Positions 11,676 to 27,694 of a stretch of 33,676 nucleotides of DNA are shown piece by piece. Source of the stretch: Syntrophales bacterium (lineage in GTDB: Bacteria; Desulfobacterota; Syntrophia; Syntrophales; UBA8958). The translations under genes were made by a program, and so were the position numbers. A model generated the notes under the pieces. The model was not told where the DNA came from. It saw only the letters and a program-made list of their open reading frames with translations, and did no database searches. The stretch covers positions 1 to 33,676 of the forward strand of contig JAOAFE010000017.1 in NCBI GenBank assembly GCA_026416455.1, in the 5' to 3' direction. Positions within the stretch are counted from its first letter, which is position 1, and every line of letters starts with the position of its first letter.

Positions 11676-13439
11676 ATGCGCCGATATTTTGAACAAATGG
11701 AAAAGATCGGACGTCCCCTGCGACCACGCCAGCAGGAAGAGATGAAGGAAAACGCTGCACAGATCGAAGAGATCATGCAGGAAATAGAGAGGGAAGCGGC
11801 CCGGATAAGAGAATTCGGTGTCCCGACGGAGGAACTTCATAAAAGAGGTGAGATGACCGTCTGGGAACGTATAGAATACTTAGTCGATCCGGGTATGTTC
11901 TTTCCCCTGCATACAATTTACGACCCAGAAAACGAGGAATCAGGACAAACGAATGTCGTAGACGGTCTCGCCCGCATAAACGGCAAGTGGTGCGTTTTAA
12001 TCGGGTTCAACAACAAATGGATGGCCGGTGCCTGGATTGCCGGTCAGGCGGACAATAACCTCCGGGTGACGGACATCGCCAAAATCCTTCATTTGCCTCT
12101 CGTGTGGCTCGTCAATTGCTCAGGAGTGAAGTTACCGGAACAAGAAAAGGTTTATGCCAATAGGCGTGGACAGGGCACATGTTTCTTCCGTCACGCTGAG
12201 CTTGAAATAGATGGAATTCCCATCATCGCGGGTATTTACGGGACTAACCCCGCAGGCGGTGGATATCAAGGTATTAGCCCAACCATCCTTCTTGCCCATA
12301 AGAAGGCGAACATCGCGGTAGGAGGCGGTGGTATCGTAAGCGGCATGAGTCCAAAGGGATATTTCGACCTGGAAGGCGCGGAAACAATTATAGAAGCTAC
12401 CCGTCACTTCAAAGCCATTCCCCCGGGAAGCGTAGCGATTCATTATAACGAAACGGGCTTTTTCAAAGCCGTTTACGAAACGGAGACGGCCGTCCTAGAT
12501 GCCATCAAAGAGTGGATGAACTATCTTCCCGCCTACGATCCTAAGTTTTTTAGAGTAGCCGAACCGGCCGAGCCATTATACCCCGCTTCTGACCTTCTCG
12601 CCCTTATACCGGTGAATAAGAAGAAGGTGTACTCCTTCGAGGAGGTACTGGCCCGTCTTACCGATGGTTCAGAACATATGGAATTCCGGCCCGGCTTTGG
12701 ACCGGAGGTGTACTGTGGGCTCGTAAAAATCGATGGGTTCCTGATGGGGGTGATCGGAAATCGCCAGGGGATGATTCCTAACTATCCGGAGTATACAAAC
12801 GAATATCACGCCATTGGCGGAAAGCTTTACCGTCAAGGTCTCATCAAAATGAACGAATTTGTTACCCTGTGCGGCCGGGACCGGGTACCCATTATCTGGT
12901 TTCAAGATACCTCGGGCATTGATGTAGGAGACATTGCGGAGAAGGCAGAGCTCCTAGGCTTAGGGCAATCTCTTATTTACTCCATTGAACAGTCCAACCT
13001 TCCCATGATGCTCATCGTTCTAAGGAAAGGCACAGCCGCGGCCCATTACATCATGGGTGGACCGACAGCAAATAATAACAACGCCTTTACCTTAGGTACG
13101 CCAGCCACAGAAATCAACGTCATGCATGGAGAAACGGCAGCCGTAGCCTCTTACGCAAGAAGATTACTAAAAGAAAAAGACGCGGGAAAATCTTTGGAAC
13201 CGATTATCGAAAAAATGAATGAACTCGTCAGGCATTATGAGGAGACATCTCGACCTTTCTACTGTGCTAAGAAGGGATTTGTAGACGAAGTGGTGAGGTA
13301 TGAGGCCCTAAGAGATTACATGAAGGCATTTGCCAACTGTGTCTACCAGAATCCGCGCTCCTTCTGCCCTCACCATCACATGATGCTACCGAGAATAATA
13401 AAATCGCAAATAACGACGGGGTTACCGAGGCCAAAATAA
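11676..13439 (+). CDS. gcdA: Glutaconyl-CoA decarboxylase alpha subunit (carboxyltransferase)
   Basis: This 587-aa carboxyltransferase has the length of GcdA from Acidaminococcus and closely follows its pattern throughout. Shared features include the opening MRRYFEQMEKIGRPL, GAWIAGQADNNLR, LVNCSGVKLPEQEKVY, IYGTNPAGGGYQGISPT, GGKLYRQGLIKMNEFVTLC, QDTSGIDVG and the ending YQNPRSFCPHHHMMLPR. It moves the carboxyl group from glutaconyl-CoA to the biotin of a carrier subunit; the membrane beta subunit then decarboxylates carboxybiotin and exports Na+. The two acyl-CoA/biotin crotonase-like lobes are intact. AAAGGAGGC precedes the ATG. gcdB follows after one small gene. No biotin-carrier gene is nearby. 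Related methylmalonyl- or methylcrotonyl-CoA carboxyltransferases are shorter or different at the N-terminus, so the glutaconyl-CoA call is preferred. Confidence 0.93.
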   Translation: MRRYFEQMEKIGRPLRPRQQEEMKENAAQIEEIMQEIEREAARIREFGVPTEELHKRGEMTVWERIEYLVDPGMFFPLHTIYDPENEESGQTNVVDGLARINGKWCVLIGFNNKWMAGAWIAGQADNNLRVTDIAKILHLPLVWLVNCSGVKLPEQEKVYANRRGQGTCFFRHAELEIDGIPIIAGIYGTNPAGGGYQGISPTILLAHKKANIAVGGGGIVSGMSPKGYFDLEGAETIIEATRHFKAIPPGSVAIHYNETGFFKAVYETETAVLDAIKEWMNYLPAYDPKFFRVAEPAEPLYPASDLLALIPVNKKKVYSFEEVLARLTDGSEHMEFRPGFGPEVYCGLVKIDGFLMGVIGNRQGMIPNYPEYTNEYHAIGGKLYRQGLIKMNEFVTLCGRDRVPIIWFQDTSGIDVGDIAEKAELLGLGQSLIYSIEQSNLPMMLIVLRKGTAAAHYIMGGPTANNNNAFTLGTPATEINVMHGETAAVASYARRLLKEKDAGKSLEPIIEKMNELVRHYEETSRPFYCAKKGFVDEVVRYEALRDYMKAFANCVYQNPRSFCPHHHMMLPRIIKSQITTGLPRPK

Positions 13440-13458
13440 AGAAAGGAGAATGCAGGTC

Positions 13459-13599
13459 ATGGTAGAAAAAATGCAGTTAGGAGCGTGGGGAGTAGCGCTA
13501 ATAACTTATGCCATAAGTGCCGTCGTATCTTTCGGAGTTGCAGGTGTAATTAAACTTATCTTCGCCACCATCCGATTGCGAAGTGAAAACGGCAAGTAG
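13459..13599 (+). CDS. 46-aa single-helix membrane protein, possible delta (OadG/GcdD-like) subunit
   Basis: This short gene lies between gcdA and gcdB. The product has one predicted membrane helix (about residues 8-36, WGVALITYAISAVVSFGVAG) and a positively charged C-terminal tail (IRLRSENGK). A GGAG lies 10 bases from the ATG at 13459; an in-frame ATG at 13450 is only one base from it. Na+-transporting decarboxylases use a small one-helix gamma/delta subunit to hold alpha, beta and carrier together. Position and topology fit that role, but at 46 aa it is shorter than usual and lacks a long cytoplasmic tail. It has no biotin motif. Function is inferred mainly from context. Confidence 0.68.
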   Translation: MVEKMQLGAWGVALITYAISAVVSFGVAGVIKLIFATIRLRSENGK

Positions 13600-13620
13600 A
13601 CGAAAGGAGCAAAGAGATAA

Positions 13621-14826
13621 ATGGCTGATTTCAATTGGTTGTATCTTTTCCAAGGCATAGCGACGCTGCTGGCAAGTGAACCGGGGATTACCATCGGTCG
13701 ACTCGTCCTCATTGCCTTGGGGTTACTGTTCGTCTATCTCGGTGCCAAGGGGACTCTGGAGCCGCTTATTATGATTCCCATGGGGGTAGGCATGGCAGCG
13801 GTCAACGGAGCTGTGTTGTATCTTTCCGCAACGAAAATGGGAACGATCTTCATCGACCCCATGGTAAGTGACCCAGCCCCTCTTTTGGATGCTTTACAAA
13901 TAAACTTTTTACAGCCCATCTACACCTTCACGTTTAGCAATGGTCTCATTGCGTGCCTCGTGTTCATGGGTATTGGGGTCATAACAGATGTGGGTTTTAT
14001 ACTCATGGCCCCGTTCAGCTCTATGCTCATTGCTATCTGTGCCGAATTGGGAACGATTTTAACTTTCCCCGTCGCCGTCTGGATGGGTCTTACTTTTAAA
14101 GAAGCAGCCGCCATCTCTGTAGTTGGCGGTGCCGATGGACCCATGGTGTTGTTTACCTCCCTCATGCTAGCCAAGCACATGTTCGTTCCCATTACCATCG
14201 TTGCCTACCTGTACTTGAGTCTCACGTACGGAGGCTACCCTTACCTGATTAAGTTGTTCATTCCCCAGAAGTTGAGGGGCATAAAGATGGATTTAAAGGG
14301 TATGCCGAAGGTTACCCCAGGCGAAAAGATTGCCTTTTCTCTCATAACCTGTACGATTCTATGCCTTCTCTTTCCGGTTGCGGCTCCTCTTTTCATGTCT
14401 TTTTTCTTGGGGGTAATTATCAAAGAATCGGGGATAAAGAAGTTTGTAGAATTTCTCGAAGGTCCCGTATTATTCGGTTCTACCTTTTTTCTAGGTCTCC
14501 TACTTGGGGTACTTTGCGAAGCCTCGACCATTCTCAACCCGAAGGTGCTAAATCTTCTTATTCTGGGCATGTTTGCCCTACTTATGTCAGGTATCGGTGG
14601 GATCATCGGCGGCTACATCATGTACTTTATATCCAAGGGCAAATTCAATCCGGTGGTGGGTATTGCTGGCGTTTCCTGCGTCCCAACGACAGCCAAGGTA
14701 GCCCAGAAAGAGGTACAAAAGATAAACAAACATGCCCTCATACTCCCTTACGCGATGGGGGCAAACGTATCGGGAGTAATAACCAGTGCCATTATCACGG
14801 CTATCTTCTGTACAATTTTAAGGTAG
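13621..14826 (+). CDS. gcdB: Glutaconyl-CoA decarboxylase beta subunit (Na+ pump)
   Basis: This 401-aa polytopic membrane protein belongs to the OadB/GcdB/MmdB family, which decarboxylates carboxybiotin and couples this to Na+ export. Family motifs are present: EPLIMIPMGVG (47-57), the Na+/carboxybiotin site VVGGADGPM with D172, the late GVSCVPTTAKVAQKE segment and the terminal NVSGVI helix. It follows the 46-aa gene by 21 bases and has GAAAGGAGC upstream of the ATG. With gcdA it forms the core of a decarboxylase that conserves the free energy of glutaconyl-CoA decarboxylation as a sodium gradient. Confidence 0.95.
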   Translation: MADFNWLYLFQGIATLLASEPGITIGRLVLIALGLLFVYLGAKGTLEPLIMIPMGVGMAAVNGAVLYLSATKMGTIFIDPMVSDPAPLLDALQINFLQPIYTFTFSNGLIACLVFMGIGVITDVGFILMAPFSSMLIAICAELGTILTFPVAVWMGLTFKEAAAISVVGGADGPMVLFTSLMLAKHMFVPITIVAYLYLSLTYGGYPYLIKLFIPQKLRGIKMDLKGMPKVTPGEKIAFSLITCTILCLLFPVAAPLFMSFFLGVIIKESGIKKFVEFLEGPVLFGSTFFLGLLLGVLCEASTILNPKVLNLLILGMFALLMSGIGGIIGGYIMYFISKGKFNPVVGIAGVSCVPTTAKVAQKEVQKINKHALILPYAMGANVSGVITSAIITAIFCTILR

Positions 14827-18208: not shown

Positions 18209-19072
18209 ATGCTGAGAAGATTCTCTCCTGAAGAAACGCTTACTTTATGTATGCTCTTTCTACTGAACATTTTAATTATTTTCAGCGGTCAATTGAGTAA
18301 AGCCTATCACTATTTTTTCTTAAATCTCGCCCTCATCAGCGTTATATTTCTTCTTACCTATCTTCCCCTCTCTTGGCGTTGGGTACGCGATTGGTACATA
18401 ATTATTTACCTTCTAGTTATCTTCTTCGAAAACGGAACACTCGTGCCACTTATCAATCCTTACGAAATGGACGAGTTTCTCATCCAAGCCGATCGCCTTC
18501 TCTTTGGCGGTCATGACCCTTCACTCTTTCTCGGGAAATGGGTTATTCCTCCCTTCGTAGAAATCTTACAGATTGTATATGCAAGTTTCTATTTCCTCCC
18601 CCTTCTCCTTTGCCTCCTCCTTTACGTAAAAAAAAGGGACAAACGGGATTTCCACCTTTGCGCCTCCAGTATCCTCCTGGGATTTTATCTTTCATACATC
18701 GGCTACTACCTGTGTCCTGCCTTAGGGCCCCGATTTACCCTAGAACATCTGCAGGAAAAACCATTAGTTGGCTTGTGGAGTTTTACATACGTTCGAGAGC
18801 TACTCGCTTGGATGGAGGGGAAAATGTACGATTGTATGCCAAGCGGCCATACTTTGGTTTCCCTACTGACCGCCCTTCTCGCTAGGCGATACTTTCGCCC
18901 CTTTTATGCAATCTCACTTATTTGGGCTTTGCTTATGGTCGTCTCTACCGTTTATCTCCGTTATCACTACGTCTGGGATGTGATAATGGGAGTCGCCTTG
19001 GTAATCCCCGTCTATGCCCTAACCCGTAGATGGGAAGAAAACCCCTGGTTTTCTCAAACGGGCCGCTCGTAG
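18209..19072 (+). CDS. PAP2-superfamily membrane phosphatase/phosphotransferase (IPC-synthase-like)
   Basis: This 287-aa protein has several predicted membrane helices and the three PAP2-type motifs: CPALGPRF (169-176), CMPSGHT (209-215) and RYHYVWD with H253 and D257. The form CPALGPRF plus PSGHT is that of the Aur1/inositolphosphotransferase branch, which moves a phospho-headgroup between lipids, rather than of undecaprenyl-diphosphate phosphatases. The active site is expected on the outer face of the inner membrane. GAGGGG lies four bases before the ATG. It has its own short leader after the terminator at 18138. Its last 19 bases overlap the end of the convergent YghO-like gene. Either a phosphatase or a headgroup transferase is possible. 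Confidence 0.85.
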   Translation: MLRRFSPEETLTLCMLFLLNILIIFSGQLSKAYHYFFLNLALISVIFLLTYLPLSWRWVRDWYIIIYLLVIFFENGTLVPLINPYEMDEFLIQADRLLFGGHDPSLFLGKWVIPPFVEILQIVYASFYFLPLLLCLLLYVKKRDKRDFHLCASSILLGFYLSYIGYYLCPALGPRFTLEHLQEKPLVGLWSFTYVRELLAWMEGKMYDCMPSGHTLVSLLTALLARRYFRPFYAISLIWALLMVVSTVYLRYHYVWDVIMGVALVIPVYALTRRWEENPWFSQTGRS

Positions 19073-20178
19073 ATGCGATAGGTCTTATAAGGAGCAGCCG
19101 CCAAAGGTCTTAGTGCCCTAATCATCGCTCGGTTCGTCTCGACTATTAGAGAACAGTCGCTTTCTGTGTAACCCATGGCAATACCGTCCTCGATAGTTCG
19201 AAGATAGAAGATATCGTCAATGTGACGCCCCTGATGCTCAGGTAATACACCCATGATGATAGTTCTCACCCTTTTAATCTTCCTCTTTTCCCACAAGAAT
19301 TTCAGAATCCTCCAGGGATAGAGACGGCCATTTAAGCATTTGAGGGCCGGGTTCACGTCTGGCAGAGATATAATAAAACCCACCGTTTCATCACCCTTTT
19401 CGGCAAAGATGGCAAGTTCTGGGATGGCAATCATTTTCAAATCTTGCGCAATCATATCTATCTGTTTATCCGTAAGAGGTAAATGCCCCCAGTTTCCATC
19501 CCATGCCGTGTTGAAGATATGTTGGATTTCTTTGATGCGGCGGTCAATTTCTTTCTTTTTTAGCGTAACGAAACGGTATTCCGTCTTACGCAGGAGCTCT
19601 TCTTTTACCTGCTTAAGATAGTCAGCGTAAGCGGAGAAATTTTCTTCTTTAACGACAAAACAGTGCCAATCTATGCACTTGGAAAAACCGCATGCCTCCG
19701 CTAGCTGCCGATAATAAGGGGCAAAGTGAAAGAGGCCCACAGCGGGCATGATATCAAAGCCTGCAACTTCAAAACCAACTGAGTCATAAATGGAGAAACT
19801 CTGAGGGCCGTTCAAGCGTTTCTTCCCTTTCTTCCGCACCCATTCAGCAGCCGCGTCGAAGAGGGCCTGTGCCACCTCAAGGTCATTTATTGACTCATAA
19901 AAACCAAAAAAGCCCGTTTCCTGATCATACCGCTCTTCGTATAAACGATTTACGTGAGCGGTGATGCGTCCCACTGGCCGACCGTCTTTGTAGGCCATAA
20001 AATATTCCGCCTCTCCAATTTCGAAGAAGTAACCGCGATTCCGATCCAACATGAGTTTCATATCCCTAATCAGAGGGGGAACCCAGGCGGGATCATCTCT
20101 GTAAATACCCGCCCGCCACGGAAAATAAATAAATTCTTTCAACATTTTTTTTCCTTCTACTCGCTTGATCTCGACCAT
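19054..20178 (-). CDS. YghO-like GNAT-fold acyltransferase
   Basis: This 374-aa protein resembles the YghO family. It opens with the characteristic FIYFPWRAGIYRDDPAWVPPL (about 16-36) and has GPQSFSIYDSVGF in the middle. The C-terminal GNAT half contains the acyl-CoA loop-like VLPEHQGRHIDD. No signal peptide or membrane helix is seen. From memory, related proteins include an N-acyltransferase proposed as a bacterial ceramide synthase, so N-acylation of a long-chain base is a candidate reaction; this is inference. It is the last gene of the five-gene minus-strand operon, 12 bases after the DUF72 gene, and overlaps the PAP2 gene tail-to-tail. AAGGTG lies upstream of the ATG at 20178. Confidence 0.78.
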   Translation of the reverse strand: MVEIKRVEGKKMLKEFIYFPWRAGIYRDDPAWVPPLIRDMKLMLDRNRGYFFEIGEAEYFMAYKDGRPVGRITAHVNRLYEERYDQETGFFGFYESINDLEVAQALFDAAAEWVRKKGKKRLNGPQSFSIYDSVGFEVAGFDIMPAVGLFHFAPYYRQLAEACGFSKCIDWHCFVVKEENFSAYADYLKQVKEELLRKTEYRFVTLKKKEIDRRIKEIQHIFNTAWDGNWGHLPLTDKQIDMIAQDLKMIAIPELAIFAEKGDETVGFIISLPDVNPALKCLNGRLYPWRILKFLWEKRKIKRVRTIIMGVLPEHQGRHIDDIFYLRTIEDGIAMGYTESDCSLIVETNRAMIRALRPLAAAPYKTYRIYERPV

Positions 20179-20190
20179 TTCATCACCTTC

Positions 20191-20910
20191 TTAAGATTTT
20201 CCTATCATTTCTATGAGACGTGCCGCATTAAAAGGGGCATAGGCCATGTAGTCATTATCAAAATACACGTAAGTTTCTTTCTTCCAATCTTTAATCTTTT
20301 CCTTCCATGTTTCTAGCTCCTCATCCGTATAGCATGAACGGTAAAGGGATTGAGAGCCGTGTAACCGGATATATACAAAATCAGTTGTTATTTCCTCTCT
20401 GTAAGGGTAACGACCGGCGGTATCGGAAATACACCAACCTAAACCCAGTTCTCTTAACGTATCGATGCACTCTTGGGTAAACCACGTCTTGTTTCTTGCT
20501 TCGATGGCTACCTTAAAGTGATGGGGAATCAAAGGGCGAAAAGCTTTAACCGTTTCACGCTCAAAAGAGAGACTGGGTGGGAGCTGGATGAGCAGGCAGC
20601 CTAACCTTTCGCCTAGCAATGAAACGCCTTCCAGAAACTTCGATACGGCTTCCTCGCAGTTTTTCAACCTCTTAATATGAGTGATAACCCGACTAACCTT
20701 AACCGACCAAAGGAAGCCGGGGGGGGATAAATTTCGCCATTTGATATAAGTGTCCGGTCGTATGGAGCGATAAAATGAGGCATTCAATTCTACGGTGGGA
20801 AACTGGGTCATATAAAAGCTAATCCACCGATGCCTCGGCAGCCCATGGGGATAGAAAGTTCCCGCCCAGTGGGTGTAGGTCCACCCCGAAGTGCCAATGA
20901 AGATTCCCAT
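20191..20910 (-). CDS. DUF72 family TIM-barrel protein
   Basis: This 239-aa protein begins with the DUF72 (YecE) signature IGTSGWTYTHWAGTFYP. It continues with FPTVELNASFYR (about 36-47), SVKVSRVITH and LLIQLPPSL, then VAIEARNKTWF and the late YIRLHGS and YVYFDNDYMAYAPFNA motifs. It is a predicted cytoplasmic TIM barrel. The biochemical role of DUF72 proteins is not established as far as I know; the conserved acidic and histidine residues suggest metal-dependent hydrolase or phosphodiesterase chemistry. The gene lies between GH130 and the YghO-like gene on the same strand; a 58-base gap upstream and a weak ribosome site may reduce its expression relative to its neighbours. Confidence 0.9.
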   Translation of the reverse strand: MGIFIGTSGWTYTHWAGTFYPHGLPRHRWISFYMTQFPTVELNASFYRSIRPDTYIKWRNLSPPGFLWSVKVSRVITHIKRLKNCEEAVSKFLEGVSLLGERLGCLLIQLPPSLSFERETVKAFRPLIPHHFKVAIEARNKTWFTQECIDTLRELGLGWCISDTAGRYPYREEITTDFVYIRLHGSQSLYRSCYTDEELETWKEKIKDWKKETYVYFDNDYMAYAPFNAARLIEMIGKS

Positions 20911-20968
20911 AACGTCTCAATATCAGTACAACCAATTTTTCACCCTCTATCTCTATTTTACGATGCCG

Positions 20969-21898
20969 TCAACATTTTCTGCTTTCCGTTAGATAGCTTA
21001 GAACGTCTGGAAGGGAAGCCTGGGCCAAGGCAAGACATTTATCTCCTCCACCATAGTACAGTTTGATATCCCCTCCCTGAACAACCCATCCACAGGGGAA
21101 CACTACCTTATCCACATCACCACTTATTTCATATGATTCTTCCGGCCCAAAAATCCACTCCTCGCTTCTTTTCACAACCCTCGTAGGGTTTGACAGGTCG
21201 AGGAGGGCAAGCCCGAGACGGTAGATAGGACCACTCGCCGTGTTTTTTACGCCATGATATAGGATAAGCCATCCCTCATGGGTCTTAAGTGGAGGCGTAG
21301 CGCAACCTATTCTGCCTGCATCCCACCATCCTCCTTCTCGCGCAGGAATCACTAATTGATGATCTCCCCAATGTTTGAGATCGGGACTGAAAGAAATCCA
21401 TATGCTAGCACTGGCCCCGGTCATGGCAGGAACCGGTCGGTGCAGCATGGCGAAACGGCCCTGAAACCGCTCTGGGAAAAGGGCAGCATTCTTATTTTCT
21501 GGAGGCAGAACACATCTAATTCGACTAAATTCACGGAAATCAGAGGTAGTCGCCAAAGATACCAGCGGTCCCCTACGAGAGTAAGCGGTATAAGCAATAA
21601 CCCACAATTCGAGCTCCGGAATAAAAGTAATACGGGGATCCTCGATGCCCCATTCTTCCTCTGGATACTTCACCGGATCGGGCAGTAGGACAGGGGTCTC
21701 CTTCACCTCCCATCCATCCACCCCATTGTCGCTTATCGCCAATCCGAAATGAGATAAACCCCTCTTATCCTCTACCCGCATGAGCAGGAGCACCTTTTCT
21801 TTAAAAAAAGTAGCTCCAGCGTTAAATACGGAATTTACAGGATAGGGTATGTCTGATGGCTTGATGATTGGATTTTGTTCATGGCGCTTAAACAACAT
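20969..21898 (-). CDS. GH130 family glycoside phosphorylase/hydrolase
   Basis: This 309-aa five-bladed beta-propeller enzyme belongs to family GH130. It opens with NPIIKPSD, keeps the family's central EDPR motif with the probable general acid D87 (EEWGIEDPRIT), and has later WDAGRIGCATPPL, LILYHGV and LYYGGGDKCLALA segments. Family members phosphorolyse or hydrolyse beta-mannosides (Man-GlcNAc, Man-Man). The absence of a signal peptide points to a cytoplasmic enzyme. It follows the glycosyltransferase at 21909 by 10 bases, with GGAG before the ATG. Beside two glycosyltransferases it could trim, recycle or control the length of the glycan they make. Phosphorylase and hydrolase subtypes cannot be separated here. 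Confidence 0.9.
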   Translation of the reverse strand: MLFKRHEQNPIIKPSDIPYPVNSVFNAGATFFKEKVLLLMRVEDKRGLSHFGLAISDNGVDGWEVKETPVLLPDPVKYPEEEWGIEDPRITFIPELELWVIAYTAYSRRGPLVSLATTSDFREFSRIRCVLPPENKNAALFPERFQGRFAMLHRPVPAMTGASASIWISFSPDLKHWGDHQLVIPAREGGWWDAGRIGCATPPLKTHEGWLILYHGVKNTASGPIYRLGLALLDLSNPTRVVKRSEEWIFGPEESYEISGDVDKVVFPCGWVVQGGDIKLYYGGGDKCLALAQASLPDVLSYLTESRKC

Positions 21899-21908
21899 AG
21901 ATCTCCAT

Positions 21909-23135
21909 TTAAAACTCCAAATCGAGAATTATTGGTTTTCCTCTACGTACGGCCCGGCGGGCCAGCTCGTACGCTTCGGCGTACTGTCTAGCCACCACTT
22001 CCCATGAGACAACCTGTTCCAAGTAACGCTTTAGGTTATTTGCTAGTTGTTCTCGTAGGCGGGCATCCGTTGCTAACTGAATGATCCGACGTCTGAGCAT
22101 AGCTTTGGTTGTAAACAGCAATCCTCCTTCACTTTCAATTGTTTGAGCGGTCAGTCCTTCGACAGGTGCCGTAGTTATGAACGGTTTATTTAGGGCAATA
22201 ATTCTCGCTAATGTACCCGATTGAGTTTCATCCACCGTTGGCAAGACGACAAAATCGCAAATAGCCATTAATTTATAATAGTCTTCGCCTCGAGGTATAA
22301 ATTCGTGATAGAAACCCATTTTTTTTCGGGCCAGCGAGAGGCATTCAGCTTTCCATTTCTCGTAAAACCGGCGATGATTGGGATCTCTCATCGTCCCGGC
22401 CGCAAGAAGCCACCAATTTTCCCCTGTTTGATCCTTTATCTCTTTTCGAATGTCCTCCCACATGGAAAGAAGGATATCCCATCTCTTGTTATCTTGAATC
22501 CACCCTATCATCCCCACCAGGCGTCCATCTACTCCCGCCTCATCGAGTCCTAGCTCCCGGCGCAAATGAGGAATGTCTTCTGGTCGATAGCGTCTGTCTG
22601 GCCTTGCACCATGCGGAACGACCATTATATTTCTCGGTGTCTGCCAACCTAACGTTTTGAATGTCCAGTCTAACCTCCACTTCTGATAATGGCACTTAAA
22701 CAAAACCACATGACTCCTTTGGCATAGTCTGTAGATAAAGTCCGCCTCCGAATCCCTCAGTCTGCCATGCACCGTGTGAGGCTCTACCACAATCGGGTAA
22801 TTTCCGATGGCCTCGAGGAGACGTAAAAAACCTTCATTGCCATCACCTACGCCTCGCGAATCGCGGTACTCAAACAAACCGTACTCATGCTCAATATGAA
22901 TAGCGTAGGGATCAAGTTCTTCCACTTTTCTCGCAACACGTTTCCACCAATCCCGACGGCTTACGTCTATGATGGGAAAGACACCATGCCCTTCTCCGTC
23001 AAGGTGACTTATGACCAAAACCTCACGTTTTGGGTTGGCACGCTGAATGAATTCCCGCGCCTCTTCACAAAAGGTCGCAATCCCGCATAGGCGAGGAGGA
23101 TATGAACTGATCATGACAATCGGTTTTGGCCTCAC
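21909..23135 (-). CDS. GT4-like glycosyltransferase
   Basis: This 408-aa GT-B glycosyltransferase opens with SSYPPRLCGIATFCEEAREF and IEHEYGLFEYRD. These closely parallel the N-terminal half of the neighbouring fused protein, so the two are paralogues. The C-terminal Rossmann half contains GMIGWIQDNKRWDILLSMWE and the donor-site-like TVDETQSGTLARIIALNKPFI. It lacks a signal peptide and is probably peripheral to the cytoplasmic membrane. The start is a GTG at 23135 seven bases after a GGGGGA, three bases beyond the stop of the upstream gene, so the pair is translationally coupled. Sugar donor and acceptor are not readable; mannose is suggested only by the adjacent GH130 gene. Confidence 0.88.
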   Translation of the reverse strand: MRPKPIVMISSYPPRLCGIATFCEEAREFIQRANPKREVLVISHLDGEGHGVFPIIDVSRRDWWKRVARKVEELDPYAIHIEHEYGLFEYRDSRGVGDGNEGFLRLLEAIGNYPIVVEPHTVHGRLRDSEADFIYRLCQRSHVVLFKCHYQKWRLDWTFKTLGWQTPRNIMVVPHGARPDRRYRPEDIPHLRRELGLDEAGVDGRLVGMIGWIQDNKRWDILLSMWEDIRKEIKDQTGENWWLLAAGTMRDPNHRRFYEKWKAECLSLARKKMGFYHEFIPRGEDYYKLMAICDFVVLPTVDETQSGTLARIIALNKPFITTAPVEGLTAQTIESEGGLLFTTKAMLRRRIIQLATDARLREQLANNLKRYLEQVVSWEVVARQYAEAYELARRAVRRGKPIILDLEF

Positions 23136-23138
23136 CTC

Positions 23139-25436
23139 TCAATCCCCCGCCGATGCAGCAAAAAGAGATATTTGATAGTGACGGAAACGATGGAAGTTCA
23201 GGAAGGCAAGAAGACAAGAAAGGGTAGATTCGGCCCCTTGATTAAGATTGGGACCACTGGCATGGAGTCCATCACAGCATCCACCTGTCTGGTGATCATA
23301 AAGGGGGACATTTAGATCATTGCGACCTAGAAACCATTCAATACATCTCTGGGCGTGGGTCAACCACCTGATATCCGCCGTAACCTCGTATGCAGTACGG
23401 CAGGCCTCTATCATTTCCACCGCTTCTATCGGTTGTTGATCAAAGCGAGCCTTTTCTTGCCCTTTTCTGTACCATCCGTTGTTTCCAATAGGCACGAAGT
23501 GGCCTCGGGGATCGGTTTGGATTTCAATCAACCAACTTAGAGATCTAATTCCCGCGTCCAGCATATCTCCGTGTTGGAGAGCCTGGCCTCCCAAAATGAG
23601 AGCTTGAGCAATTCGACTATTAGCATAGGCTACTATATCTTCCAACCACGGCCAATCTTCGGTGGCGTGATCTCGAAATTGGTTGTAGAGGCGTAAGGCC
23701 AGTTGCTCCCTTATTCTTCTCACTTCGCTGTTGCCTCCGAATCGGCGTAGATAGGCACTCATACCGGCAATGCCATAGGCAATACTCCGAGGGGAGCGAA
23801 ATTCAACCATTGCCTTGAGTGCCCTGTCGAATAACTCTTGGGCTGCCGCCCGGATGCCCTCGGATTCTGTCATAGAAACTGCCTCCCCCAAGCCCCAAAG
23901 GGCACGCCCGTGGCTATCCTCGGAGCCTACATCTTCCAGCCATCGACGGTCGTAACCCATAAAATTTCTGAACCTACCCGTTTCATCGTTAAAGGCATGA
24001 TAAAGGAAGCTCAAGTATATACAAGCCAGGTCATTCAAATCGTGCGCATCCATCACAGTTTCCTGAGCCATAATAACAGCTATCAAGGCCCTCGCATTAT
24101 CGTCCGTACAGTAACCATGCCAACGATCGGGCACAATGTACTTAGCGTGTTGGAGGATGCCTACATCATCCGTAAGACGCCTTATATGGTCAAGATTAGC
24201 TCGGGGAATTTCTCGGGGAGATACATCCATGGTCTTTGCCCGGAAGATAGGTCGTGGCCTACTTTCCCTTTCTCTTATCACTTCTTCAAAAGTTTCTAGA
24301 TAACGCCGAGCCACTTCCTTCCATACCATCTCTCGAGTAAATGTATAGGCCCGTTTTCTCATAGCATGCCTTTCTGCCTCGTGGTCTAGGAGATAATTTA
24401 CAGCCGAGGCGAGGGCCCCTGCATCCCGAAAAGGCACGATTAATCCCCTTCCTTCAGCCAGCATCTCTTCGGCATACCAATACGGTGTAGAGATGGTTGC
24501 CTTTCCGTTACCTAAGGCATAGGCAAGAGTCCCCGAAGTAATCTGCTCTTGATTGAGATAAGGGGTGACATAGATGTCAGCTGCTCCCAAGTACTCGCAG
24601 AGCTCTTTTAGCTCGACAAAACGGTTGTGGAAGATGATATGTTCTCCTACCCCTAATTCACGAGCTTTCTGTTGAAGAGAAAGTCGATAAGCTTCGCCTT
24701 GGATTCTACGTATATGTGGATGTGTGGCCCCCAAGACGATGTAGACTACATCGGGATGCTTATCGATAATTTGGGGCAGGGCCTCAATCATCGTTTCAAT
24801 CCCCTTCCCGGGAGAAAGGAGGCCGAAGGTTAGAATCACTTTTCTACCCTCGACGCCGTACTGATCTTTATAATAATTAGGGTCAACGAAGGGCACATCA
24901 GGTATACCGTGATGAATAAGTATTATTTTTTCTTTCTGGACTCCGTACACATTGACCAAAATCTCGACGGCCCGGTTGCTCATCACAACCAGACGATCGG
25001 AGAGGTGGGATATGCGTCTCAAAACGTTGAGCTGGCCGGGATTGGGGTTCTTAAGTACCGTATGCAATGTAGTAACTATAGGCATGCGCAAATTACCCAC
25101 CAGATCCAGAATATAGGCACCATTCTCACCGCCAAAAATACCATATTCATGTTGAAGACAGACAATATCCACGCGATTTGTATTGAGAAAATCGGCGGCC
25201 AAGTTGTAATCTTCAAGCGAGCGATCCCGAATCTCAAAACGCACTGCTGGAGGATAGGGATATCCTTCCGGTGTATCGTTCATAACCACGGCCCAGCATT
25301 CGCCTTGAGCATTCTCTTCAGACACGGCGGTAAGCAGATCCGTGGTAAAAGTAGCAATACCACATTGGCGAGGAACAAAATTACCGATAAAAGCCACCTT
25401 GAGAGGATGATAGTGATAAGTGCCTAATCTTACCAT
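23139..25436 (-). CDS. Glycosyltransferase fused to an (alpha/alpha)-barrel glycosidase-like domain
   Basis: This 765-aa two-domain protein has an N-terminal GT4-type glycosyltransferase at about 10-390: PRQCGIATFT, LQHEYGIFGG, the IHHGIPD donor segment (174-180), GLLSPGKGIETMIEAL (205-220) and EQITSGTLAYALG. From about 400 to 765 comes an all-helical toroid-like domain with WHGYCTDDNARAL (439-451), EDSHGRALWGLGEA and WPWLEDIVAYANSRIAQAL. These repeated aromatic/acidic helices resemble (alpha/alpha)6 glycosidases. GGAGG lies seven bases before the ATG. It is the first gene of the five-gene operon. The fusion suggests a coupled build-and-trim activity on one glycan, or a helical domain used to bind it; the catalytic acids have not been established. 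Confidence 0.86.
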   Translation of the reverse strand: MVRLGTYHYHPLKVAFIGNFVPRQCGIATFTTDLLTAVSEENAQGECWAVVMNDTPEGYPYPPAVRFEIRDRSLEDYNLAADFLNTNRVDIVCLQHEYGIFGGENGAYILDLVGNLRMPIVTTLHTVLKNPNPGQLNVLRRISHLSDRLVVMSNRAVEILVNVYGVQKEKIILIHHGIPDVPFVDPNYYKDQYGVEGRKVILTFGLLSPGKGIETMIEALPQIIDKHPDVVYIVLGATHPHIRRIQGEAYRLSLQQKARELGVGEHIIFHNRFVELKELCEYLGAADIYVTPYLNQEQITSGTLAYALGNGKATISTPYWYAEEMLAEGRGLIVPFRDAGALASAVNYLLDHEAERHAMRKRAYTFTREMVWKEVARRYLETFEEVIRERESRPRPIFRAKTMDVSPREIPRANLDHIRRLTDDVGILQHAKYIVPDRWHGYCTDDNARALIAVIMAQETVMDAHDLNDLACIYLSFLYHAFNDETGRFRNFMGYDRRWLEDVGSEDSHGRALWGLGEAVSMTESEGIRAAAQELFDRALKAMVEFRSPRSIAYGIAGMSAYLRRFGGNSEVRRIREQLALRLYNQFRDHATEDWPWLEDIVAYANSRIAQALILGGQALQHGDMLDAGIRSLSWLIEIQTDPRGHFVPIGNNGWYRKGQEKARFDQQPIEAVEMIEACRTAYEVTADIRWLTHAQRCIEWFLGRNDLNVPLYDHQTGGCCDGLHASGPNLNQGAESTLSCLLAFLNFHRFRHYQISLFAASAGD

Positions 25437-25623: not shown

Positions 25624-27561
25624 CTACAGAGACCAAGCGGCTCGTGCTCCTTCTTCGACTGCTTCGATAATCCTTCGGGGTGCCTTAGCATCCCCCACCA
25701 CCGCGAAAGGAATACCGAGACGTTCTAAAGCATATTTCAAATCATCTTTCGGTTTTAAACCCACCGCCACCACTACCTTGTCTACCGGAGCAATAGTTTT
25801 CTTCCCTTCTGCTGTTTCCACTTCCACCGCTCGATCTCCAATGGCTATGACCTTCGCCCCGAAGATGAGATTACAGTTCTTATCCCGCAGCCTCTTATGC
25901 AACATATACCCGTGGGAGGTAATTTTAAGAACAGGGGAGCGCTCGAGCATCTCCAAAATCGTAACCTGTACACCTTTTTCGCTCAAAAAATCTGCCGTCT
26001 CCATCCCAACTAAGGCTCCTCCCATGACAATTACGTGCCCCGTAGGTCGAACTTTACCCTCCAGCACCTGCCAAGCATCACATACTAGATCACGCTCAAT
26101 GCCGGGGATAGGGGGAATAATTTTTTCTCCCCCCGTAGCCACAATTACAAAGTCTGGTTTGCCCTCTCGGATAAGACCTTCATCAACTTCTATACCGGTT
26201 TTAATCTCGATGCCCATTTTCCTCACCTGATCAATTTGCCAATCGATCCAGCGACCGTATATCTCTTTATGGGGTGGAATTTGGGCATAACGGATCTGGC
26301 CGCCTAGGGATTTATTCTTCTCCCAAAGGATAACCTTATGGCCTAAACGATGAGCTTCCGAGGCGGCAATTAAACCCGCCGGTCCACCTCCGATGACCCA
26401 AACGTTCTTAGGATTCCGAGATGGAGTGGTGGGATAAACGGTCTCTTGCCCCGTCTCTGGATTTATGGAGCAACGAATATTACCCTCCCCGAGGATTTCT
26501 CTTTCAATACACCCCTGATTACAGGCAATACACTGTCTTATATCTTCTTCTCTCCCCTCACGGGCTTTAATGAGAAAATCGGGGTCAGCCAAAAATTGGC
26601 GTCCGAAGGCAACTAGATCCGCATCACCACGCGCCAATACCTCTTCGGCCTGAGAAGGCAAAGTAAAGCGGCCGACGGCAATCACAGGTACATTTACCAC
26701 CTCTTTTATCTTACGAGCAAGCCAGACATTGAATCCCGGCTCATATTCAGCCGGCGCCTGGGTAATTCCCGCTGGGCTACCATGGGTACCAAAAGAAGCA
26801 TGTATGATATCTGCTCCTGCCTCCACCATGTCGGGGAGAATAGTCTGCATATCTTCTACTGTGTAGCCATTCCTAATTGACTCTTCTGCTGAGATGCGGA
26901 CGGAAACGGGAAAATCTGGTCCTACTTGCCTCCTCACCTCACGTATTACTTCTAGGACGAAGCGTGACCTTTCTTTCAAGGTTTTTCCACCATATTCATC
27001 CGCCCTTTGATTAGACAGCGCCGAAAGAAACTGGGTGAGGAGATAACCATGGGCACAATGTATTTCCACAGCATCAAAACCCGCCTCCTTTGCCCTTCGT
27101 GCGGCCTGACCAAAAGAAGCAATAGCTTCTTTAATATCATCAATCGTCATCTCCCTGGGAGTACCCCGAAATACAATACTCGGTATAGCGGAAGGAGCCA
27201 TAGCACGCCCCGCTCGCAAGAGGTAGACGCTCTCCCGACCACAGTGGTGAATTTGCATAGCAATTTTAACCCCTGCCTCGTGCGCCACCTGCGCTAGCTT
27301 TGCCAAACCCGGTATAAAACGGTCATCATAGGCACCGAGCTGATGGGGACTCACTACCCCATCGGGGTGGACACCTGTAATCTCAGTTATAATAAGTCCT
27401 GGCCCACCCTGAGCTCTTCTCTTCATATAGGCAATGTTCTCCTCACTAACCGTACCGTCCGCATTACCTAAATTGGTGCCCATGGGTGGCATAACAACAC
27501 GATTTGATAGAGTAAGGCTTTTCACTGTAATAGGTGAAAACACGTGTTTTAGTGCAATCAT
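25624..27561 (-). CDS. NADH:flavin oxidoreductase / 2,4-dienoyl-CoA reductase-type enzyme
   Basis: This 645-aa three-part enzyme has an FMN-binding old-yellow-enzyme barrel at about 1-340 (SNRVVMPPMGTNL, QIHHCGRES, AHGYLLTQFLS). A 4Fe-4S site follows at about 350-375 with the pattern CxxCxxxC-x11-C (QCIACNQGCIERE). The C-terminus holds FAD and NAD(P) Rossmann domains with GGGPAGLIAA and GGALVGMETADFL. This is the architecture of 2,4-dienoyl-CoA reductase (FadH), trimethylamine dehydrogenase and bile-acid-inducible BaiCD/H enzymes. Given the neighbours, reduction of an unsaturated acyl-CoA or aromatic-derived intermediate is most likely. The ATG at 27561 has AAGGAG six bases upstream; the 38-residue extension to 27675 lacks family similarity. 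It is transcribed alone, with its own promoter. Confidence 0.9.
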   Translation of the reverse strand: MIALKHVFSPITVKSLTLSNRVVMPPMGTNLGNADGTVSEENIAYMKRRAQGGPGLIITEITGVHPDGVVSPHQLGAYDDRFIPGLAKLAQVAHEAGVKIAMQIHHCGRESVYLLRAGRAMAPSAIPSIVFRGTPREMTIDDIKEAIASFGQAARRAKEAGFDAVEIHCAHGYLLTQFLSALSNQRADEYGGKTLKERSRFVLEVIREVRRQVGPDFPVSVRISAEESIRNGYTVEDMQTILPDMVEAGADIIHASFGTHGSPAGITQAPAEYEPGFNVWLARKIKEVVNVPVIAVGRFTLPSQAEEVLARGDADLVAFGRQFLADPDFLIKAREGREEDIRQCIACNQGCIEREILGEGNIRCSINPETGQETVYPTTPSRNPKNVWVIGGGPAGLIAASEAHRLGHKVILWEKNKSLGGQIRYAQIPPHKEIYGRWIDWQIDQVRKMGIEIKTGIEVDEGLIREGKPDFVIVATGGEKIIPPIPGIERDLVCDAWQVLEGKVRPTGHVIVMGGALVGMETADFLSEKGVQVTILEMLERSPVLKITSHGYMLHKRLRDKNCNLIFGAKVIAIGDRAVEVETAEGKKTIAPVDKVVVAVGLKPKDDLKYALERLGIPFAVVGDAKAPRRIIEAVEEGARAAWSL

Positions 27562-27586
27562 ATCAAACTCCTTCTGTTTTTTTACG

Positions 27587-27615
27587 AGTTTAATTTTTTT
27601 TATTGTCGATGTCAA
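27587..27615 (-). promoter_or_regulatory. Sigma-70-type promoter of the flavin oxidoreductase gene
   Basis: On the minus strand TTGACA (27615-27610) is followed after 17 bases by TAAACT (27592-27587), a consensus -35 with a four-of-six -10. The leader to the ATG at 27561 would be about 20 bases and contains the AAGGAG. Confidence 0.6.
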
Positions 27616-27652
27616 ATGTTGCCATCTTAATTTTCTACTTTGTGTATGACTA

Positions 27653-27694
27653 CCCTTTGAAGGGAGGAAACACATAGTTGAAGGGAACCTTCAA
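27653..27694. repeat. Repeated TTGAAGGGA boxes with a perfect inverted repeat, likely operator
   Basis: TTGAAGGGA occurs at 27657-27665 and again at 27678-27686, 21 bases apart (two helical turns). The second copy is part of the perfect inverted repeat TTGAAGG-GAA-CCTTCAA (27678-27694); the first lies in the imperfect palindrome CCCTTTGAAGGG (27653-27664). It sits between the divergent promoters of the oxidoreductase and the sensor kinase. Two ordered sites on one face of the helix suggest cooperative binding, perhaps by the response regulator encoded at 29072. Confidence 0.5.

Follow-up and report, generated by a model that had tools for sequence, protein, structure and literature searches.

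The DNA analyzed here, referred to as the window, is a stretch of 33,676 nucleotides from a Syntrophales bacterium (genome G000). It contains a block of six genes (Table 1), and all six open reading frames were recovered at the coordinates given in an earlier note on this sequence. The minus-strand genes are separated by intergenic gaps of 3, 10, 58 and 12 bases, and the last of them, encoding an acyltransferase (AT), overlaps a plus-strand PAP2 gene tail to tail by 19 bases. The PAP2 protein matches Pfam PAP2_3 at 9.9e-22 and contains both the CPALGPR and the PSGHT motif, and the DUF72 protein matches Pfam DUF72 at 1.5e-69. As judged by the ORF list, Pfam and the sequence itself, the genes, coordinates, gaps and motifs of the earlier note all hold.

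Table 1. Genes of the block, with positions in the window and the basis of each assignment.
Gene product	Position	Strand	Basis
PAP2_3-family membrane protein; proposed ceramide phospho-headgroup transferase (IPC-synthase-like)	18209..19072	+	Pfam PAP2_3, triad, motif 3, model, AT pairing
AT, tandem-GNAT acyltransferase, YghO / bacterial ceramide synthase (bCerS) family	19054..20178	-	YghO identity, fold, Spt linkage, tree
DUF72 protein; outside the conserved lipid pair	20191..20910	-	Pfam; not beside AT elsewhere
GH130 beta-mannoside phosphorylase-like protein; within a separate GT4/GH130 module	20969..21898	-	Pfam; nearest structures; GT fusion linkage in relatives
GT4-type glycosyltransferase; GT4/GH130 module	21909..23135	-	Pfam; L089 ortholog between GT fusion and GH130
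GT4-type glycosyltransferase with C-terminal domain of unknown family; GT4/GH130 module	23139..25436	-	Pfam, N-terminal only

Two further regions of the window lie outside this block. At 11676–14826, a carboxyltransferase gene is followed by one for a sodium-pump decarboxylase beta subunit, which scores 534 bits with the malonate decarboxylase model, not far below its cut-off of 597; acyl-CoA degradation genes surround the two. At 25624–27675, an Old-yellow-enzyme type flavoprotein gene, with BaiCD/bilirubin reductase as best models at a score below their cut-offs, diverges from a PAS histidine kinase/LuxR regulator pair.

Both glycosyltransferases (GTs) have GT4-type domains in Pfam and, as previously suggested, are paralogous (24% identity over 429 columns, E 5e-14). 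The larger one, of 765 amino acids, had been described as a fusion to a glycosidase and is called the GT fusion below; the glycosidase part was not confirmed, as residues from about 410 to 765 have no Pfam match and the C-terminal half gives only a weak PDB match (7tem, 2.9e-6). The GH130 protein is covered by its Pfam domain over the full length (residues 16–304, 1.7e-54), and its nearest solved structures are beta-mannoside phosphorylases. The GH130 phosphorylase clusters of Thermoanaerobacter (PMC4264767) likewise combine GH130 with a GT4 gene; the window GH130 differs in lacking neighboring ABC transporter or GDP-mannose genes.

Comparison with relatives resolves the block into two modules: the AT–PAP2 pair and an independently moving GT4/GT4/GH130 module. 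When the window proteins were compared by BLAST with 13 loci containing AT relatives, taken from named genomes, AT and PAP2 alone were held in common, and family clustering of further loci gave the same result. Window-type GTs do not adjoin the AT–PAP2 pairs of other genomes, and BLAST of the AT-relative loci found no DUF72 gene beside AT in other genomes. Sixteen of the 140 class genomes carry the GT fusion; in the loci read, GH130 adjoins it in most and the second GT in some, and AT or PAP2 is never beside it in the relatives' loci. In locus L089, which comes from a member of the window genome's family, the order is GT fusion, GT, GH130, further GT, second GH130. Among the genomes read, the two modules adjoin each other in the window genome only, and the GT fusion is found in the same genome as AT no more often than expected by chance (3/15 versus 13/125, p 0.38). 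The idea that the block is one conserved system was rejected, the GT/GH130 and AT–PAP2 genes being apart in every relative read.

The short gaps of 3–58 bases mean that AT may be co-transcribed with the GT/GH130 genes in the window genome, where a local link between them is conceivable. They are also compatible with one operon for a mannosylated sphingolipid, in which the GTs would mannosylate ceramide and the GH130 protein, with its likeness to beta-mannoside phosphorylases, would trim or recycle the product. We consider this highly improbable, given that AT–PAP2 occurs elsewhere without GT/GH130 and that the GT fusion shows no association with AT; a mannosylated sphingolipid is unsupported because relatives repeatedly carry the GT4/GT4/GH130 genes with no AT, PAP2 or serine palmitoyltransferase (Spt) alongside. 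Of the glycolipid proposed in the earlier note, the mannolipid half falls, and with it the sugar genes as partners, whereas a sphingolipid role for AT and PAP2 stands as probable; the neighborhood comparison recommended there found AT–PAP2 conserved and GT/GH130 unlinked to it. As far as the comparative evidence goes the sugar genes do not share that role; they form a separate module, probably for making and recycling mannosides, that precedes AT in this lineage. In L091, L092, L096 and L089 the GT fusion/GH130 genes adjoin groES/groEL-, hsp20- and dnaJ-like genes (identified by eye) or DUF6178, which suggests a stress-related mannoside.

The AT shares 33% identity with E. coli YghO over its length, in agreement with the YghO-like identity assigned earlier, and 31–43% with Spt-linked members of the YghO/bCerS type, with 22 invariant columns. 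The predicted model is a tandem GNAT (pLDDT 70). A PDB search with the AT sequence gave no relative, and NCBIfam offered no usable name for either AT or YghO. The window AT is the sole family member in G000. In the AT phylogeny, the clade that includes the window protein (21 rows, support 100/100) has as its sister (100/99) a clade in which most members are some 5 kb away from Spt, and AT nests among Spt-linked members; it does group with the N-acyltransferases, one of the points on which the earlier note had made the lipid role depend. By sequence, then, we assign AT as a Spt-linked ACYLTRANSFERASE of the YghO/bacterial ceramide-synthase family.

The linkage of this family to Spt extends across the phylum. 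An even sample of 394 phylum genomes contained Spt in 52 and an AT family member in 107, and the family was present in 50/52 Spt genomes versus 57/342 others (odds ratio 125, p 1e-30, a value that overstates independence, the genomes being related by descent). These counts are conservative, because Spt was accepted at a limit of 1e-105 that the Spts of L109, L113 and L114 just miss. AT and Spt are immediate neighbors in 31 genomes, and another 6 have them no more than 6 kb apart; in the class, close AT and Spt are weakly linked (2/8, p 0.05). In two genomes of different families, G167 (L110) and G252 (L112), the operon runs from a CerR-like gene of the epimerase family through Spt to AT, which meets PAP2 tail to tail; this is the AT–PAP2 arrangement of the window with the Spt genes still attached. 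Outside the phylum, AT is beside or near Spt in Rubrobacter (Actinomycetota), Aureispira (Bacteroidota) and E. coli, and in a plasmid collection 19 of the 20 AT records, among those listed, also carry Spt.

The E. coli case (NZ_MG591698.1, 5000–20000; L126) places yghO with genes for an acyl-AMP ligase, an epimerase-type (CerR-like) reductase, ACP, Spt, lptG and lptF; its Spt scores 599.9 bits, above the NCBIfam cut-off, and the Caulobacter sphingolipid region holds the same kinds of genes (PMC11324152). In K-12 MG1655, yghO (L017, NC_000913 14044–16341) is abutted by IS5 with the other genes missing, and appears to be what is left of a sphingolipid-type cluster. Other neighbors were noted in passing. 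A B12-binding radical SAM gene, which could modify lipid chains, lies near AT or Spt at L004 7447–8820 (Pfam-supported), L005 3989–5296, L007 4846 and L083 3259. In L105, L107, L108 and L109, all of one family, Spt and AT flank a MacB-type ABC transporter-like gene and two conserved hypotheticals (by eye), possibly a sphingolipid export set.

The earlier note saw no serine palmitoyltransferase, which is correct within the window and incorrect for the genome: an Spt is encoded on another contig (G000:C41:92943-94115), so its absence from the genome can be discarded, and the search for Spt and long-chain-base genes that the note called for yields both this gene and an adjoining SDR gene. In the PDB, the G000 Spt matches the SPTs 3a2b/8guh best, at 417 bits, and the top KBL entry reaches 236; it resembles proven SPTs more than it does KBL, BioF or ALAS. 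Its best NCBIfam model is serine palmitoyltransferase (CFB model), at 524 bits below the equivalog cut-off of 640. The closest Spt found to it is that of G167 (66%). Another strong match to the family, on G000:C33, was dismissed as Spt, being BioF within a bio operon. The KDSR-like SDR gene lies directly upstream of Spt on the same strand; its sequence does not set it apart from other SDRs. An Spt-neighboring SDR is also present in G109, with 31% identity to that of G000, and a KDSR known from Bacteroides is BT_0972 (discussed in PMC11087976).

The PAP2 gene is the constant partner of close AT genes. It is tail to tail with AT in 26/394 phylum genomes, and Spt is found in 33 of the 45 PAP2 genomes of that sample (odds ratio 48). 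PAP2 is present in every one of the 19 genomes whose AT is close (over 500 bits), adjacent to AT in 16 and tail to tail in 15 of these; in G146–G148 it is on a different contig from the close AT. His214, His253 and Asp257 are invariant across 11 PAP2 homologues, including those from Spt operons, a His-His-Asp triad that PAP2 phosphatases have in common with them. Motif 3 reads STVYLRYHYVWD in the window protein and STMYLTHHYFVD in Aur1, both without the SR of the phosphatase pattern SR-----H---D; in PAP2 phosphatases, PgpB for example, the second residue is an arginine, which is missing in 11/11 homologues. In the predicted fold (pLDDT 71, medium confidence), the best match is the IPC synthase 9vj4, which aligns over the full length (248 residues) with a Z of 13.5, in a range where values to about 13–14 can be helical background. 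Aur1–Kei1 (9ivc) follows at Z 12.8, PgpB at 10.7 (170 residues) and SMSr (8ijq) at 10.0; by Foldseek alone, the best match has E 0.014 and probability 1.00.

We weighed these data against a reading in which AT is a ceramide synthase and PAP2 a lipid phosphatase acting on ceramide-1-phosphate, a long-chain-base phosphate or a carrier lipid. The fold is common to PAP2 phosphatases (Z about 9–11), B. subtilis PgpB is the best sequence profile match (3.8e-6) and outscores Aur1, and the phosphosphingolipids of Caulobacter begin with a ceramide kinase and not with a PAP2 transferase (PMC11324152; PMC10331486). The motif 3 arginine, missing from every homologue aligned, and the full-length match to IPC synthase rather than the shorter one to PgpB argue the other way, and we regard a phosphatase as rather unlikely. 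In motif 3, and tentatively in the modeled fold, PAP2 is closer to IPC synthase than to the phosphatases, and from these features we infer that PAP2 is a ceramide head-group transferase. The proposed chemistry has a bacterial precedent, because genetic work in Bacteroides has shown the Aur1 relative BT_1522 to be its PI-dihydroceramide synthase (PMC9246714).

Based on these observations, we lean toward a model in which AT and PAP2 act at the end of a bacterial sphingolipid pathway, with the sugar genes separate. Starting from the genes, the conservation of the pair, its Spt linkage and the conserved triad, all directly observed, we infer four reactions: (i) Spt, from the other contig, would join a long acyl chain to an amino acid (probably serine) by condensation; (ii) the adjoining SDR would reduce the 3-keto base; (iii) AT, the predicted tandem GNAT, would put a second acyl chain on the amine to give ceramide; and (iv) PAP2 would move a phospho-head group from a phospholipid to ceramide by means of an IPC/sphingomyelin-synthase-type His-His-Asp triad, giving a phosphosphingolipid. 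Placing reduction before acylation is likewise provisional, as is the nature of the head group.

The pair extends beyond genomes with Spt. Of the 19 close AT–PAP2 genomes, 13, some of them 96–100% complete, have no Spt model match at E 1e-40, a limit so permissive that it catches even BioF in G000; the pair is therefore not tied to de novo long-chain-base synthesis. Such pairs would act either on imported bases or on an amine other than a sphingoid base. It is conceivable that this applies to AT–PAP2 in general, the pair acylating and head-grouping another long-chain amine or salvaging the bases of neighbors, with an ancestral relation only to Spt. The retention of both genes in the 13 genomes fits this reading; the sister AT clades are nevertheless Spt-linked, and six genomes of the same AT clade, G000 and G109 among them, do have Spt, and we judge this reading unlikely. 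For the window genome we retain the sphingolipid pathway ending in AT and PAP2. For the Spt-free lineages, we raise as a speculative and rather doubtful possibility that the pair uses a long-chain amine not made by any alpha-oxoamine synthase to form a ceramide-like phospholipid, i.e. a sphingolipid-type lipid without Spt, or obligate salvage in anaerobic consortia.

We know of no account of how anaerobic deltaproteobacteria and spirochaetes finish their sphingolipids. The head-group enzymes of bacterial phosphosphingolipids are partly open, and a PAP2 gene travelling tail to tail with a ceramide synthase offers a concrete, testable candidate; the Spt-free pairs also call into question the use of Spt alone as a marker of sphingolipid-like lipids. 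A study of Bacteroides found no EPC synthase match (PMC8791184). Our literature search combining PAP2 with bacterial sphingolipids returned no relevant paper. The AT family, as ceramide synthase, and the core pathway are of an already known kind, and the new part, absent from the literature searched, is the PAP2 partner as head-group enzyme together with the Spt-free pairs.

Among known systems, Aur1 resembles the window PAP2 protein in the PAP2-type fold predicted for the latter, its His-His-Asp triad and its ST-YL--HY--D motif 3, and both Aur1 and BT_1522 share with it a genetic link to ceramide synthesis (PMC9246714). Identity to the IPC synthase Aur1 is about 14% in the structural alignment, the window PSGH corresponds to PSLH, and, in contrast to Aur1/BT_1522, there are no inositol genes beside the window PAP2. 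A Black Sea study (PMC11334938) likewise searched for Spt, bCerS and CerR homologues and placed Desulfobacterota among potential sphingolipid producers; the term PAP2 is absent from its main text. The window AT appears to be the same kind of Spt-linked N-acyltransferase as bCerS/CerS (CC_1154) of Caulobacter, a likeness drawn from family members and gene context. Homologues in E. coli and Roseomonas lie in clusters with the same kinds of genes as the CC_1154 region (PMC11324152), which comprise CerR-like, ACP, acyl-AMP ligase and LptF/G genes as well as a CDP-alcohol transferase, a lipid kinase family member and a nucleotidyltransferase. Unlike its counterpart in the Caulobacter bCerS cluster, the window AT is not beside Spt, and it belongs to a separate clade in which its partner is PAP2.
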